A stretch of 44,780 nucleotides of DNA, from the NCBI GenBank assembly GCA_025351485.1, contig JANXVU010000075.1:1-44780 (forward strand). Direction: 5' to 3'. The notes below the pieces were generated by a model. The model was given only the letters and a program-made list of their open reading frames with translations. It searched no databases and was not told the DNA's origin. Origin of the DNA: Candidatus Eiseniibacteriota bacterium. Lineage in GTDB: Bacteria > Eisenbacteria > RBG-16-71-46 > JACRLI01. Both the position numbers and the translations under genes were made by a program. Below, one piece after another: positions 317 through 6,568 of the stretch (position 1 is its first letter; each line of letters opens with the position of its first letter).

Positions 317-856
317 CTACAGCCCCTCCCCGGGCTGGGTGGGCTCCATCCGCAGTGCATTGTTGAACCGGTTGAAGTAGTTGAACACCCCGACGACCAT
401 GGTGATCTCGACGATCTGGCCCTCGTCCCAGGAGGAGCGCATTCGCGCCACCAGCGCGTCGTCCACGTTGTTGGAATCGGAGTTCACCCGGTCGGCCCAG
501 GCCAGGGCGGCCCGCTCAGGCTCGCTGAAGGGGCCGGATTCGTACTCGAGGATGTTCTCCAATTGCTCCACGGTCGCTCCGTACCGTCCTGCCAGGACGG
601 TGTGCGAGCGCAGTCAATAGACGCAGTTGTTCCGGCGGCTCACCAGGACCGTGACCAGTTCCTTCAACAGCGGCGGCACCGTGCCTTCGCTCATGACCAT
701 GCTGTAGTGGGAGATCATGGTCTTGAGGTGCGAGGGGCGCTGCGCGACCACCCGGAACATGTTTGGAACATTTCCCCGCTCCCGGCCAAACTTCTCGTAG
801 ATCTCCTTCACCGCGGGCGGGACTTCTTCCTTGGTCAAACGCTTCAGAATGGACAT
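317..856 (-). CDS. AhpD-like alkylhydroperoxidase, probable selenoprotein (Sec81 encoded by UGA)
   Basis: Carboxymuconolactone decarboxylase/AhpD-family protein, a thiol peroxidase fold using a CxxC pair. The frame from ATG 856 (GGAGG 5 bases upstream) is interrupted only by TGA at 614-616 and resumes in the same frame to TAG at 317, giving 179 residues when UGA is read as an amino acid. The UGA falls exactly on the second cysteine of the motif: E68, then C78 twelve residues on, then V-Y-U81, then H85 four residues after U. These spacings match E118/C130/C133/H137 of Mycobacterium AhpD. The sequence on both sides is ordinary family sequence, including FNYFNRFNNALR near the end. A bSECIS-like hairpin follows the UGA. 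CxxU forms of AhpD-like proteins are known in other bacteria. The alternative is a pseudogene made by one TGC-to-TGA change. The gene is divergent from actA. Confidence 0.82.
575..616 (-). promoter_or_regulatory. Candidate bacterial SECIS element with its UGA codon
   Basis: On the minus strand, UGA at 616-614 is followed by a perfect 8-bp hairpin, ACCGUCCU pairing with AGGACGGU (601-594 with 590-583), closed by the three-base loop GGC (593-591). Twenty bases separate UGA from the first loop G, within the 16-37 range used for bacterial SECIS elements, and the first two loop bases are both G, as SelB recognition needs. A second helix, CGCUC with GAGCG (610-606 with 579-575), extends the stem across a small internal loop. 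The hairpin lies inside the coding region, as expected in bacteria. Confidence 0.75.
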
Positions 857-1066
857 GGCGCCTCCGCTATGGGGTCCGGGCGGAGTCTCGCGGGGCGGGG
901 GGAAAGCGTCAAGGGAAGAGACCTTCCAGCGCCCCCGGAATCCTGTTGCGGGCCGGATTCCTCTTGGGCTAGTCTCCGGCTCGATACCCCGCCAGGCCCG
1001 GCCGCAACTTGGTCCAATCGTTGGCAATCCGTTAGGCAGCTTCGAACGAGGGTGGAGCACAGGTCT

Positions 1067-1170: not shown

Positions 1171-1761
1171 ATGAAGACATATTTCCTTCCCTTGACCGCG
1201 CTTGCCGCGGTGACCATTCTTGCCGCCGCGTTGAGCGGTTGCAGCCCCGCTCGGGGGTCCGAGACCAAGGACGGCCTCATTACCGTGCCCGCCAGCGAGC
1301 ACGGGAACCCGTCTTCGGCCCCGGTCCAGCCCGTCGATTACCGTCATAGCATCCATGCGGGCCAGTACAAGATCCCCTGCCTCTACTGTCACAGTTACGC
1401 GGACAAGTCGCCCGTCGCGAACGTTCCGGCGGTGTCCACGTGCATGAACTGCCACCGCATCATCGCGGGCTCGACGCCTTATAATCAGCAGGAAATCGCG
1501 AAGGTCGTGGATTACTGGACCAAGGGGCAGCCGATTCCCTGGGTGAGCATCCACCGCCTGCCCGACCACGCGTACTTCAGCCACAAGCGGCACGTGAAGG
1601 CCGGGATGCAATGCCAGACCTGCCACGGCCCGATCCAGAACATGGACCACGTGTATCAGTATTCGTCCCTGAAGATGGGCTGGTGCGTGACGTGCCACAA
1701 AGCCAACCTGCACAACGCCCAGTTCGCCACCAGCATTGACTGTTACACATGCCACAAGTAG
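1171..1761 (+). CDS. actA: Alternative Complex III subunit ActA, pentaheme cytochrome c
   Basis: Periplasmic electron-transfer subunit of the quinol:cytochrome c/HiPIP oxidoreductase that replaces the bc1 complex. The 196-residue protein has exactly five CxxCH heme c sites (C70-H74, C91-H95, C148-H152, C172-H176, C191-H195), as in characterised ActA proteins. The N-terminus is a lipoprotein signal: hydrophobic stretch, then lipobox LSGC with the lipidated cysteine at C24, so it is probably tethered to the membrane. It is the first gene of actABCDEF; the next gene starts 7 bases after its stop. No strong ribosome site precedes the ATG. The identification rests on heme count, size and gene order. 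Confidence 0.93.
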   Translation: MKTYFLPLTALAAVTILAAALSGCSPARGSETKDGLITVPASEHGNPSSAPVQPVDYRHSIHAGQYKIPCLYCHSYADKSPVANVPAVSTCMNCHRIIAGSTPYNQQEIAKVVDYWTKGQPIPWVSIHRLPDHAYFSHKRHVKAGMQCQTCHGPIQNMDHVYQYSSLKMGWCVTCHKANLHNAQFATSIDCYTCHK

Positions 1762-1768
1762 AGGGACT

Positions 1769-4705
1769 ATGTCGGGCGGCTTGAAGCGTCGTGACTTTCT
1801 AAAGCTGGTGGGGGTCGGCGGCGCCGGCCTGGCTCTCAGCTCCTGTAAAAAGGAGACTGAGAAGCTGATCCCGTTTGTCCAGCAGCCCGAAGACATCATT
1901 CCGGGGATCCCGACCTACTACGCCAGTTCCTGCCGCGACTGCGCCGCCGGATGCGGCCTGGTGGTCAAGACCCGGGAAGGCCGCGTCATCAAGCTGGACG
2001 GCAACGCCGACCACCCGGTCAACCGCGGCGGCCTGTGCGCCCGCGGGCACGGCGCGCTCCAGGACCTCTACAACCCCGACCGCCTGCGCACCCCGGTGAA
2101 AAAGAACGGCTCCGCCTGGGACAAGATCTCCTGGGACGACGCCATCGCGCTGCTGGCCCAGAAGGCCAAGGCCGCCGGCGCCAGGACCGCCGTGCTGACC
2201 GGCCACGAGACGGGCTCGGTGGACGCGCTGATCGGGGAGTGGATGAAGGCCCTGGCGTCCCCACACCATCTGCGCTACGAGGCTTTCGGCTTCGAGCCGC
2301 TCCGCGAGGCCACCCGGATCGCTTTCGGCAAGGCCGTCGTGCCCAGCTACCACTTTGACAAGGCCAAGCTGGTGTTCAGCTTCGGCGCTGACTTCCTGCA
2401 GGACTGGACCAGCCCGGTGAAGGCCGCCAGGGGCATGGCCGACGCCCGCGGCGGAAAGTCCGACGGACAGCGCTACGTCGCATTCGATGCGCGCCCGAAC
2501 CTGGCCGCCTCCAACGCCGACGAGCACGTTTCCATCAAGCCCGGCTCCGATATGGCCGTAGCCTTGGGGCTGCTGCACGTGATCGCCTCGGAAAACCTGG
2601 GCTCGGTCCCGGGCGGGGCGCCCGCGGGCTTTGACCCGGCGTCCGTGGAAGCCCTTTCGGGAGTCAAGCAGGACTCCCTCAAGCGGCTGGCGCGCGAGTT
2701 CGCGAAGACCCGGCCGGGTCTCGCGGTGGCCGGCGGAGTGGCGACGCAGGGCGACAACGCCACGGCGCTGTGCCTTGCGGTGCACTTGCTGAACGCCGCG
2801 GTCGGCGCGGTGGGGACCACCGTGGACCTGGACGGCGCCATGCGCATGGAAAACTTGGCCTCGGCCCGCGATCTGGTGGAACTTGGCAAGAAGATGGCGG
2901 CCAAGGAAATCGAATTGCTGGTGGTGTACGGGCCGAATCCGCTTTACACCTTGCCCAGGTCACTCGCTTTCCAGGCCGCCATGCAGGCCGTGCCGTTCAA
3001 GGTGAGCTTTGCCCGGCAATTGGACGAGACTTCCGAGCTGTGCGACCTGATCCTGCCGGTCAGCCACCCGCTCGAATCGTGGGACGACGCCGAGCCGGTG
3101 GCCGGCGTGCGCAACCTGATGCAGCCCGCCATGCGCCCGGTGTTCGGCTCGCGCTCGGCCGGTGAAGTGGTGTTCGCGGCGGCCAAGCAGAACGGCGCCA
3201 CCCCGCGCGGAGCGGACTTCCTGGGCTACATGCAGGAGCAGTGGAAGGGCGCCCAGTCGGGCGGCGACTTCGACGCATTCTGGGAAAAGGCGGTCCAGTC
3301 GGGCGGCGTGTGGAATCCGCCGGCCGCGCAGCCGCACGGTTTTGCCGGCACTGTAAACGTGAAGTGGGCGGCCCCGAAACTGCAGGGCTCCGATTCCGAC
3401 CCGGTGCTGATGCTGGTCCCGACCGCCCACATGTACGACGGCCGCGGCGCCAACAAGCCGTGGATGCAGGAAGTGCCCGATCCGGTCACCAAGACCATGT
3501 GGCACACCTGGGCCGAGATCTCGCCCACCATGGCCAAGAAGCTCGGGGTCACCGAGGACGGCGACCTGCTGGACATCGAAGGACTGGAAGAAAAGCTGAA
3601 CGTGCGCGCCTACATCCACGACGGGCTGCGCGACGACGTGGTGGCGATCAGCCTGGGCCAGGGCCACACCAGCTACGGCCGGTACGCCAAGGACCGCGGC
3701 GTGAACGCCATGACCGCGATGCGCCCGGTGATGGACGAAGCCTCCGGCGCCCTGGCCTTCATGCAGGCCCGCGCCAAGGTCACCCGCGCCGGAGGGCACA
3801 AGAAGCTTTCGCTGGCCCAGGGCGGCAGCGACCAGCTTGGCCGCGGCATCGCCCAGACGGTGACGATCGATGAACTGCTGCACCCCAAGCCGGCTCCGAA
3901 GTACCCGGGCAACGACGACTTCGAGGTCGAGGGGACGTACGTTCCGAACTACAAGAAGGAATACGAGAAGCACCCGCTGAGCGGCAATCCGATGATGACC
4001 AAGCACCGCTGGGGCATGGCCATCGACCTGGACCGCTGCACCGGCTGCAGCGCCTGCGTCACGGCGTGCTACACCGAGAACAACATCCAGATCGTGGGAG
4101 AAAACGAGACCTGGAAGCGCCGCGACATGGGCTGGATCCGGATTGAAAAGTACCTCGAGCACGGAGCCGACGGCTCGGTCGAGGTGCGCATGGTGCCCAT
4201 GGCCTGCCAGCAGTGCGATAACGCCCCGTGCGAGTACGTGTGCCCGGTATACGCCACGTACCACAATCCGGAAGGCATCAGCGCCCAGATCTACAACCGG
4301 TGCATCGGCACCCGTTACTGCGCCAACAACTGCCCGTACCGCGCGCGCAAGTTCAACTACCAGGAGCCGGTAATTCCGGAGCCGCTGAACTGGCAGTTGA
4401 ACCCGGATGTGACGGTGCGCAGCAAGGGCGTCATGGAAAAGTGCAGCTTCTGCATCCAGCGCATCCGCGTGGGCCGCGACGCCGCCAAGGACGAGGGCCG
4501 CGACATCAAGGACGGCGAGGTGGTCACCGCGTGCGCCCAGAGCTGCCCCACGCAGGCGATCGTCTTCGGTGACCAGAACGACCCGGGCAGCCGGGTGAGC
4601 CAGATCGCGAAGGACCCGCGCGGCTACAAGGTGCTGGAGATCCTCAACACGCAGCCGAACATTCACTACCTCAAGCGCGTGCGGCGCGAGGCGGCGAAGG
4701 TCTAA
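1769..4705 (+). CDS. actB: Alternative Complex III subunit ActB, molybdopterin-like plus iron-sulfur domains
   Basis: A 978-residue fusion of a molybdopterin-oxidoreductase-like domain (about 50-720) and a ferredoxin-like domain (about 745-970). It starts with a twin-arginine signal (RRDFLK, residues 7-12) followed by a lipobox-like LSSC at C26, so it is probably Tat-exported and lipidated. An N-terminal Cys set C55, C58, C62, C90 is kept. The C-terminal domain has the four-cluster pattern: CTGCSACVTAC, CQQCDNAPCEYVC, CIGTRYCANNC, and CSFC...CAQSC. In solved ACIII structures the first domain holds no molybdenum and the second carries three 4Fe-4S and one 3Fe-4S clusters that pass electrons towards ActA; the same role is inferred here. 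An upstream in-frame start at 1736 would overlap actA and spoil the Tat signal, so ATG 1769 is chosen. Confidence 0.94.
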   Translation: MSGGLKRRDFLKLVGVGGAGLALSSCKKETEKLIPFVQQPEDIIPGIPTYYASSCRDCAAGCGLVVKTREGRVIKLDGNADHPVNRGGLCARGHGALQDLYNPDRLRTPVKKNGSAWDKISWDDAIALLAQKAKAAGARTAVLTGHETGSVDALIGEWMKALASPHHLRYEAFGFEPLREATRIAFGKAVVPSYHFDKAKLVFSFGADFLQDWTSPVKAARGMADARGGKSDGQRYVAFDARPNLAASNADEHVSIKPGSDMAVALGLLHVIASENLGSVPGGAPAGFDPASVEALSGVKQDSLKRLAREFAKTRPGLAVAGGVATQGDNATALCLAVHLLNAAVGAVGTTVDLDGAMRMENLASARDLVELGKKMAAKEIELLVVYGPNPLYTLPRSLAFQAAMQAVPFKVSFARQLDETSELCDLILPVSHPLESWDDAEPVAGVRNLMQPAMRPVFGSRSAGEVVFAAAKQNGATPRGADFLGYMQEQWKGAQSGGDFDAFWEKAVQSGGVWNPPAAQPHGFAGTVNVKWAAPKLQGSDSDPVLMLVPTAHMYDGRGANKPWMQEVPDPVTKTMWHTWAEISPTMAKKLGVTEDGDLLDIEGLEEKLNVRAYIHDGLRDDVVAISLGQGHTSYGRYAKDRGVNAMTAMRPVMDEASGALAFMQARAKVTRAGGHKKLSLAQGGSDQLGRGIAQTVTIDELLHPKPAPKYPGNDDFEVEGTYVPNYKKEYEKHPLSGNPMMTKHRWGMAIDLDRCTGCSACVTACYTENNIQIVGENETWKRRDMGWIRIEKYLEHGADGSVEVRMVPMACQQCDNAPCEYVCPVYATYHNPEGISAQIYNRCIGTRYCANNCPYRARKFNYQEPVIPEPLNWQLNPDVTVRSKGVMEKCSFCIQRIRVGRDAAKDEGRDIKDGEVVTACAQSCPTQAIVFGDQNDPGSRVSQIAKDPRGYKVLEILNTQPNIHYLKRVRREAAKV

Positions 4706-4714
4706 GGGACGGAT

Positions 4715-6058
4715 ATGGAAACCGCGGTAGCGACGAAGGAACCGAAATACCAGGACGTCAATCCCGACATTCTGGCCACGCTCGGCGGCATGGGCAAGCT
4801 CTACTGGGCTTCCCTGGCGCTGTGCGTGCTGCTGGTGATCTGGGGCGGGGCCTGCTGGACCTACCAGATCTACAACGGCATGTGGGTGTATGGCGCGACC
4901 TACCCCGCCGTGTGGGGTACCTACATCGTCAACTTCGTGTTCTGGGTGGGTATCGCCCACTCCGGCACGCTGATCTCGGCCATCCTATTCCTGCTGCGGG
5001 CCAAGTTCCGAAGGGCCATCTATCGATGCGCCGAGGCCATGACCGTGTTCGCGGTCATGACCGCCGGGCTCTTCCCGGTGTTGCACGTCGGCCGCCCGTG
5101 GTTCATCTACTTCGCGCTTCCGTACCCAAACCAGCGCCAGCTGTGGGTGAACTTCCGCTCCCCGCTGGTGTGGGACGTGTTCGCGGTCAGCACCTACTTC
5201 ACGGTGAGCTCCCTGTTCCTGTACACCGGCTTGATCCCGGACATCGCCGCCGCGCGCGACGCCGTCAAGCCGGGCATCCGCAAGTTCGTCTACACGTTGC
5301 TCTCGCTGGGCTGGCGCGGCACCGACCGCGAGTGGAAGCACTTCAACGGCGCCTACATCTACCTGGCCGCCTTCGCGACCCCGCTGGTGCTCTCGGTGCA
5401 CAGCGTGGTTTCCTGGGACTTCGCCATGTCCATCAACCCGGGCTGGCACAGCACCATCTTCGCGCCGTACTTCGTGGCCGGCGCCATCTTCTCGGGCGTC
5501 GGGATGGTGATCACCATCATGGTGCCGCTGCGCAAGATGCTCAAGCTGGAGCGCTGGGTCACCATCGACCATTTCGACAAGATGGCCAAGCTGTGCCTGT
5601 TCACCTCGATGATCGTGGGCTACGCGTACTTCACCGAGTTCTTCCTGGTGTGGTACCACGGCAACGAGTTCGAGGTGGAGGTGTTCCGGAACCGCTTCTT
5701 CGGCCCGATGTGGGCGGCCGGCTGGATGATGCTGGCGTGCAACGTGTTCTTCCCAATCTTGTTATTCTGGAAGAAGGTTCGCACCAACCTGACCATGCTG
5801 TGGATCCTGTCGCTGTTCGTGAACGTGGGCATGTGGCTGGAGCGTTTTGTGATCGTGGTCCAGTCGCTGACCCGCCCGTTCCTGCCGTACGTGAACACCC
5901 AGATCTACCGCATCGGATTCGTGGAGACCGGGATCTTCTTTGGGAGTTTCGGTTGGTTCTTCATGTGGTTCCTGCTGTTCACGCGCTTCCTGCCGATCGT
6001 GGCCATCGCCGAAGTGAAGGAAATCCTGCCCTTCACCAAGAAAGCGAAGGTGGCCTAG
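4715..6058 (+). CDS. actC: Alternative Complex III subunit ActC, NrfD-like quinol-binding membrane protein
   Basis: A 447-residue polytopic membrane protein of the NrfD/PsrC family with about ten hydrophobic segments and a soluble N-terminal tail of about 25 residues. In ACIII, ActC holds the periplasm-side quinol site that feeds electrons to the 3Fe-4S cluster of ActB. The sequence keeps the family patterns HSGTLISAILFLLRA in the second helix region and the HSVVSWDFAMS segment, with several charged residues inside helices (for example HVGRPWF). It lies 9 bases after actB, and its stop codon is followed directly by the actD ATG, so translation is coupled. Confidence 0.94.
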   Translation: METAVATKEPKYQDVNPDILATLGGMGKLYWASLALCVLLVIWGGACWTYQIYNGMWVYGATYPAVWGTYIVNFVFWVGIAHSGTLISAILFLLRAKFRRAIYRCAEAMTVFAVMTAGLFPVLHVGRPWFIYFALPYPNQRQLWVNFRSPLVWDVFAVSTYFTVSSLFLYTGLIPDIAAARDAVKPGIRKFVYTLLSLGWRGTDREWKHFNGAYIYLAAFATPLVLSVHSVVSWDFAMSINPGWHSTIFAPYFVAGAIFSGVGMVITIMVPLRKMLKLERWVTIDHFDKMAKLCLFTSMIVGYAYFTEFFLVWYHGNEFEVEVFRNRFFGPMWAAGWMMLACNVFFPILLFWKKVRTNLTMLWILSLFVNVGMWLERFVIVVQSLTRPFLPYVNTQIYRIGFVETGIFFGSFGWFFMWFLLFTRFLPIVAIAEVKEILPFTKKAKVA

Positions 6059-6568
6059 ATGAAGCCGCAGGGAGTCCTGGGGATCTTCGGAGACATGGAC
6101 ACCGCGTGCGAGGCGATTCGCGAGCTCAAGTCCTCGGGCTACGGCCGCCTGGAAGTGCTCTCTCCGGCGCCGCACCACGAGCTGGAGCACGCCCTGGACG
6201 ACGGCCCGAGCGGGGTGAAGTGGTTCACCCTGACCGGCGCGCTCACCGGGCTGGCCTCGGCCATCGCCCTCACCACCTGGACCTCCAACGACTGGCCGCT
6301 GGTGACGGGGGGCAAGCCCATCGTCATCTCGCCCGGGTACTTCGTGATCATGTTCGAGCTGACCGTTCTGTTCTCGGCCATCTTCAGCCTGACCGGATTC
6401 ATCGTGCTGTCCAGGCTGCCGCACACGCGCCTGCGGGTGGGCTACGACGAGCGCTTCTCGGACGCCTCGATCGGGATCTGGCTGCCGGTGGCCCGCGAAA
6501 AATTCGACGCCGCGACCGCCGCCCTGAAAAAGCACGGCGCGGAGGAGGTCAAGCTTGAGACGCGTTAG
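6059..6568 (+). CDS. actD: Alternative Complex III subunit ActD (DUF3341)
   Basis: A 169-residue DUF3341 protein. It begins with a soluble ferredoxin-like segment (GVLGIFGDMDTACEAIREL) and then has a helical hairpin: one membrane segment near residues 58-77 and a second near 96-120, followed by a cytoplasmic tail. In ACIII this subunit packs against the membrane part and has no redox cofactor. It begins on the base after the actC stop and overlaps actE by 14 bases. Confidence 0.92.
   Translation: MKPQGVLGIFGDMDTACEAIRELKSSGYGRLEVLSPAPHHELEHALDDGPSGVKWFTLTGALTGLASAIALTTWTSNDWPLVTGGKPIVISPGYFVIMFELTVLFSAIFSLTGFIVLSRLPHTRLRVGYDERFSDASIGIWLPVAREKFDAATAALKKHGAEEVKLETR

Follow-up and report, generated by a model that had tools for sequence, protein, structure and literature searches.

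A single UGA within an AhpD-like gene

We analysed a window of 44,780 nucleotides from a Candidatus Eiseniibacteriota bacterium (contig JANXVU010000075.1, assembly GCA_025351485.1). Close to its beginning lies a gene for an AhpD-like protein, whose features are collected in Table 1. The frame contains a single in-frame TGA (616-614), corresponding to residue 81, and is terminated by TAG. When the UGA is read as selenocysteine (Sec), the translation becomes MSILKRL...KELVTVLVSRRNNCVYULRSH...EPTQPGEGL*. The Pfam CMD domain PF02627 (residues 43-122) runs across the UGA with a score of 46.5 bits against a cut-off of 23. GTG 571-569 on the minus strand is a likely restart codon for an automatic gene caller, and the gene would otherwise be read as truncated or broken, split at the UGA; its annotation is corrected here. 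A first-pass annotation made from the sequence alone had placed the gene at 317-856 and proposed that two frames form one protein through UGA read-through. The coordinates were correct and the strand, which had not been named, is minus. The sole in-frame TGA and the domain spanning it agree with the joining of the two frames. The motif it had given, E-x11-C-x2-U-x3-H, was exact (E66-x11-C78-x2-U81-x3-H85), and we likewise counted 98 residues in an intact frame behind the UGA.

Table 1. Features of the predicted selenoprotein gene. Residue counts at sites 66, 78, 80 and 85 were taken over the best 80 loci plus the phylum search.
Feature	Position	Strand	Details	Basis
Predicted AhpD-like selenoprotein CDS, 179 residues, complete	856..317	minus	ATG 856-854, Sec-UGA 616-614, stop 319-317	translation
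Shine-Dalgarno-like GGAGG	861..865	minus	4 nt 5' of ATG	sequence
UGA, predicted selenocysteine codon, residue 81	614..616	minus	second position of CxxU	homologous-codon counts
Predicted bSECIS hairpin	583..601	minus	8-bp stem (601-594 with 590-583), apical loop GGC 593-591	folding and conservation
Cys78 codon, first Cys of CxxU, probable resolving residue	623..625	minus		C in 28/28 Sec forms, T in 39/55 Cys forms
Glu66 codon, putative proton-relay residue	659..661	minus	PA0269 Glu36 (PMC3141380)	E in 82/83
Tyr80 codon, putative proton-relay residue	617..619	minus	PA0269 Tyr50	Y in 82/83
His85 codon, putative proton-relay residue	602..604	minus	PA0269 His55	H in 83/83

Concerning the surroundings, the plus strand carries genes for a multihaem cytochrome c, a molybdopterin/4Fe-4S protein, NrfD and ActD at 1171-6565. 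Judging from this gene content, the operon looks like one for alternative complex III, as the first-pass annotation had proposed for the DNA adjoining the gene. These genes are divergent from the AhpD-like gene, and the two are not evidently linked. Downstream on the minus strand (1-194), the start of another gene, encoding a signal-peptide-like N-terminus, is cut by the contig end. When the homologue loci were compared, the neighbours of the window gene did not recur, and the sole frame in the window with a counterpart at another locus was a shadow frame antisense to the AhpD-like gene itself. No shared function emerges from the gene neighbourhoods.

The UGA codon and its hairpin among homologues

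Homologues were collected in one scan of 84,980 genomes with a Cys-bearing query, of which the best 80 loci were kept, together with a search of the window's phylum. The resulting set comprised 82 homologues besides the window gene, 83 genes in all. At the homologous codon, 28 genes including the window gene carried TGA and 55 carried a Cys codon (50 TGC and 5 TGT), with TAA and TAG in none. The ratio of 28:55 is no estimate for the population, because the query carried Cys and only the best 80 loci were kept. Second stops in a few homologues were ordinary C-terminal terminators. The Sec forms came from Acidobacteriota, from Bacillota (Geosporobacter, Thermotalea and Anaerosolibacter) and, within the phylum of the window, from three genomes. 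The highest identity of the window protein to a homologue was 54% (26 aligned sequences). Aligning Cys homologues across the UGA had been proposed in the first-pass annotation, which had also named random stops in relatives as an argument against Sec. In the alignment, every stop at this codon was TGA, and TGA or Cys codons were the only ones seen among the 83 genes.

The nucleotides behind the UGA can fold into a hairpin. Published rules for bacterial SECIS elements (bSECIS) call for a loop of 3-9 nt, a stem of 4-16 bp, a G in the first two loop positions, a spacing of 16-37 nt and an energy of -7.5 kcal/mol or below (PMC13188914). The window hairpin begins 13 nt past the UGA and agrees with every one of these rules, having a 3-nt GGC loop, an 8-bp stem, a UGA-to-loop spacing of 20 nt and a predicted energy of -21.2 kcal/mol for the 45 nt that include it. 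In the set of the best 80 loci and the phylum search, all 28 TGA genes formed 7 or 8 of the 8 pairs at a fixed position with the loop GGC, whereas 54 of the 55 Cys genes lacked the hairpin (5 of 8 pairs at most). Among the Sec genes, changes on both sides were found in 5 of the 8 pairs, and none of 500 shuffles reached the covariation score, a figure which is not a probability, as the sequences are related. The hairpin is no by-product of the protein sequence, since 7 of 8 Cys genes encoding the same HTVLA, HTALA or HAALA peptide formed just 1-2 pairs. With random synonymous codons, 7 or more pairs arose in 1.3% of trials on average and in 10.7% for the window gene alone (position fixed), and synonymous resampling of the window gene gave an 8-bp stem in 6.5%. 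The case rests on the comparison across genes, because the hairpin of the window gene by itself is not rare (10.7%). The energy of the folded 120-nt context was not significant (z -0.38). An Rfam search of the whole window returned no match, and that of the gene returned a single hit, which was to an unrelated family and no better than chance (E 0.29). As for the bSECIS that the first-pass annotation had suggested looking for, the TGA genes share a conserved and covarying hairpin that the other genes lack, with the exception of one probable fossil described below.

Decoding machinery and exchange between Sec and Cys

The host genome (3.44 Mb, 186 contigs, 98.6% complete) encodes a tRNA-Sec of 70.2 bits with the anticodon tca (UCA), the next matches in the genome being near 46. 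A full-length selA (545 bits), a selB match above the cut-off and selD (371 bits) were also found, so that all four genes named for checking in the first-pass annotation occur in the same genome. The tRNA-Sec gene is situated directly behind selD. The host selD (L009 421-1495, G000:C116) itself carries an in-frame TGA in a CxxU motif (CAGUAAK). The hairpin behind it repeats the layout seen in the window gene: the stem has 8 bp, and the 3-nt loop (GGA) begins 20 nt past the UGA.

The Sec trait is widespread in this phylum: of 39 genomes sampled, 34 had a tRNA-Sec match scoring at least 63 bits. On the other hand, the AhpD-like gene itself is rare there, being present in 3 of 47 genomes, each time with TGA. 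The first-pass annotation had considered a selenoprotein noteworthy in this kind of genome; this was overstated in view of the 34 of 39 genomes with tRNA-Sec and of the CxxU form of TIGR01926 already present in a 2026 review (PMC13188914).

We considered whether the gene might be a decaying pseudogene, or the TGA an error of sequencing or assembly, because one in-frame stop in a fragmented draft assembly (186 contigs) gives such an impression at first sight. However, 27 other homologues share the TGA codon while none in the set has TAA or TAG, the frame stays intact for the 98 residues past the UGA, the SECIS is conserved and covarying, and the genome harbours the complete Sec machinery. We rejected this explanation on these four grounds and regard its chance as vanishingly small.

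UGA is reassigned in some bacteria, and the codon could stand for Trp or a different amino acid, by reassignment or by simple read-through. Against this, every one of the 55 non-TGA homologues in the set has Cys at this site, the genome encodes a tRNA-Sec with the anticodon UCA, and a hairpin specific to the TGA genes would be left unexplained. Reassignment was therefore rejected as well, and we see next to no likelihood in it. No evidence counts against Sec decoding. Judging from the sequence comparisons, the window gene is almost certainly a selenoprotein gene whose UGA is decoded as Sec81. The reading frame, the decoding machinery, the SECIS, the exchange of Sec and Cys, and the fold described below are well supported, and we infer that selenium is incorporated at residue 81.

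Among the genomes with a Sec form, 26 of 28 (the window's included) had selA over the cut-off, versus 8 of the 20 tested genomes with a Cys form (Fisher p = 0.0002). The two without a full selA match are fragmented assemblies, G063 and G036, the latter with a fragment only, at a contig edge. Another genome (G034, locus L020), rated 100% complete in a fragmented assembly, carries the Sec gene and selA without a tRNA-Sec over the threshold; this is possibly due to a contig gap.

In the protein tree, the Sec forms were spread across deep branches and the Cys forms fell into three groups. The tree needs three changes of the Sec/Cys label, two of them forced by supported branches, and on this tree without a fixed root any direction of change is presumptive. 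The branch leading to the window protein is long (1.46). One acidobacterial Cys homologue, L076 (3275-3796), has a TGT codon and has kept the full 8-bp hairpin, and its assembly gave no selA match over the cut-off. This gene is probably a recent conversion from Sec to Cys with a fossil SECIS. The Sec genes, the Cys genes and this probable fossil form a natural series in which gain and loss of Sec can be studied in a peroxidase-like enzyme.

Family placement and putative catalytic residues

With Cys put for Sec, the window protein scored 81.8 bits in TIGR01926, exactly at the cut-off of 81.8, and six sampled homologues scored 89.7 to 103.8 bits. The AhpD core of this family, E-x11-CxxC-x3-H, is present as E66, C78, U81 and H85. 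The protein also matched TIGR00778 (ahpD_dom; 42.5 bits, cut-off 27.8), and the canonical AhpD model TIGR00777 gave no match at E 0.001. The first-pass annotation had stated that CxxU AhpD-like proteins had been described in other bacteria, and such forms are indeed catalogued: the TIGR01926 CxxU family is listed in the 2026 review (PMC13188914), and 'AhpD-like 2' (pfam02627, CxxU) appears in the GOS survey (PMC2398784). The window protein shares with the listed TIGR01926 selenoprotein the Pfam family, the motif with Sec second and, with a score just at the cut-off, probably the NCBIfam family, but represents a separate deep-branching lineage with at most 54% identity to any aligned homologue. 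The window gene is thus a well-supported addition to an already known selenoprotein family, and it opens no new class, both the TIGR01926 family and its CxxU members having been catalogued before.

Three further families are related to the protein. NF053654 ('YciW-related (seleno)protein'), whose name implies Sec members, aligns over nearly the full length, but the window protein, at 75.9 bits where 310 are required, is not a member. The AhpD core is shared with NF041238 (AhpD-related (seleno)protein CFYUT), to which the protein does not belong either (29.4 bits versus 175), and with the GSU3128 family NF041047, which gave no match. The latter two are both listed with CxxU (PMC13188914).

The AlphaFold model of the window protein, with Sec modelled as Cys, had a mean pLDDT of 95.7. 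The closest solved structures were AhpD-like peroxidase-related proteins (TM 0.85-0.90), and the debrominase Bmp8 was also among the fold matches (TM 0.84). PA0269 from P. aeruginosa (2O4D/2IJC; PMC3141380; TM (query) 0.70) and an AhpD-like protein from D. radiodurans (6K40; TM (query) 0.89) have the same fold and the same E/C/Y/C/H relay, but carry Cys at the Sec position. AhpD from M. tuberculosis (1GU9) shares the CxxC catalytic helix hairpin, while its overall topology differs and the match is weak (TM about 0.55). Residues E66, C78, Y80, U81 and H85 correspond to Glu36, Cys48, Tyr50, Cys51 and His55 of PA0269 with a constant offset of 30. This set has been described as a proton relay in PA0269, a weak peroxidase (PMC3141380). 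In 39 of the 55 Cys forms (L047, L044, L060 and 36 others), the first Cys of CxxC has been lost and replaced by Thr, mostly as TPYC. As Cys78 is kept in all 28 Sec forms and is Thr in these 39 Cys forms, sequence conservation points to position 81 as the probable nucleophile and to position 78 as the resolving residue.

The peroxidase chemistry, the roles of residues 78 and 81, the substrate and the reductant are what we infer for the Sec form in the following scheme. SelB with Sec-tRNA(Sec) would recognise the hairpin and insert Sec at residue 81, giving an all-helical protein of 179 residues. The Sec81 selenolate, activated by the Glu66/Tyr80/His85 relay, would most likely reduce a hydroperoxide or a related oxidised substrate and become a selenenic acid. 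Cys78 would resolve this, and the resulting selenenylsulfide would be reduced in turn by a thiol or dithiol system of the cell. Taken alone, the peroxidase step appears reasonably probable to us.

A true selenoprotein may also act otherwise: it could serve some other protein as thiol/selenol oxidoreductase partner, or it could attack a different electrophile, for instance a halogenated compound, in the manner of Bmp8. AhpD-fold proteins can have activities other than that of a peroxidase, that of the debrominase Bmp8 being an example, and Bmp8 is among the fold matches. The members of TIGR01926 are merely called 'peroxidase-related', the match to canonical AhpD is missing, the peroxidase activity of PA0269 is only weak (PMC3141380), and a gene for 3-hydroxyacyl-CoA dehydrogenase is found close to six of the Sec genes from Acidobacteriota, which is no oxidative-stress context. 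Nevertheless, no member of the AhpD proton-relay set E/C/Y/C(U)/H is missing, and we hold a non-peroxidase function to be the less likely one, with a chance that is still appreciable. We tentatively raise a broader view, which we think rather doubtful as a whole: the Sec-containing TIGR01926 subfamily may be a distinct selenoenzyme with Sec81 as nucleophile and Cys78 as resolver, which already used Sec in the stock from which the homologues found descend, with at least two changes to Cys in Acidobacteriota, one of them recent (L076), and with a substrate that may not be a simple peroxide.

Two kinds of genes were seen near AhpD-like genes at several loci. The gene mentioned above, for 3-hydroxyacyl-CoA dehydrogenase/enoyl-CoA hydratase, was found at six acidobacterial loci, all with the Sec form (L031 4206-6626, L033 4329-6782, L048 5453-7867 and three others). 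A gene for a SurA-like peptidyl-prolyl isomerase was located nearby in seven loci, six of which have the Sec form.
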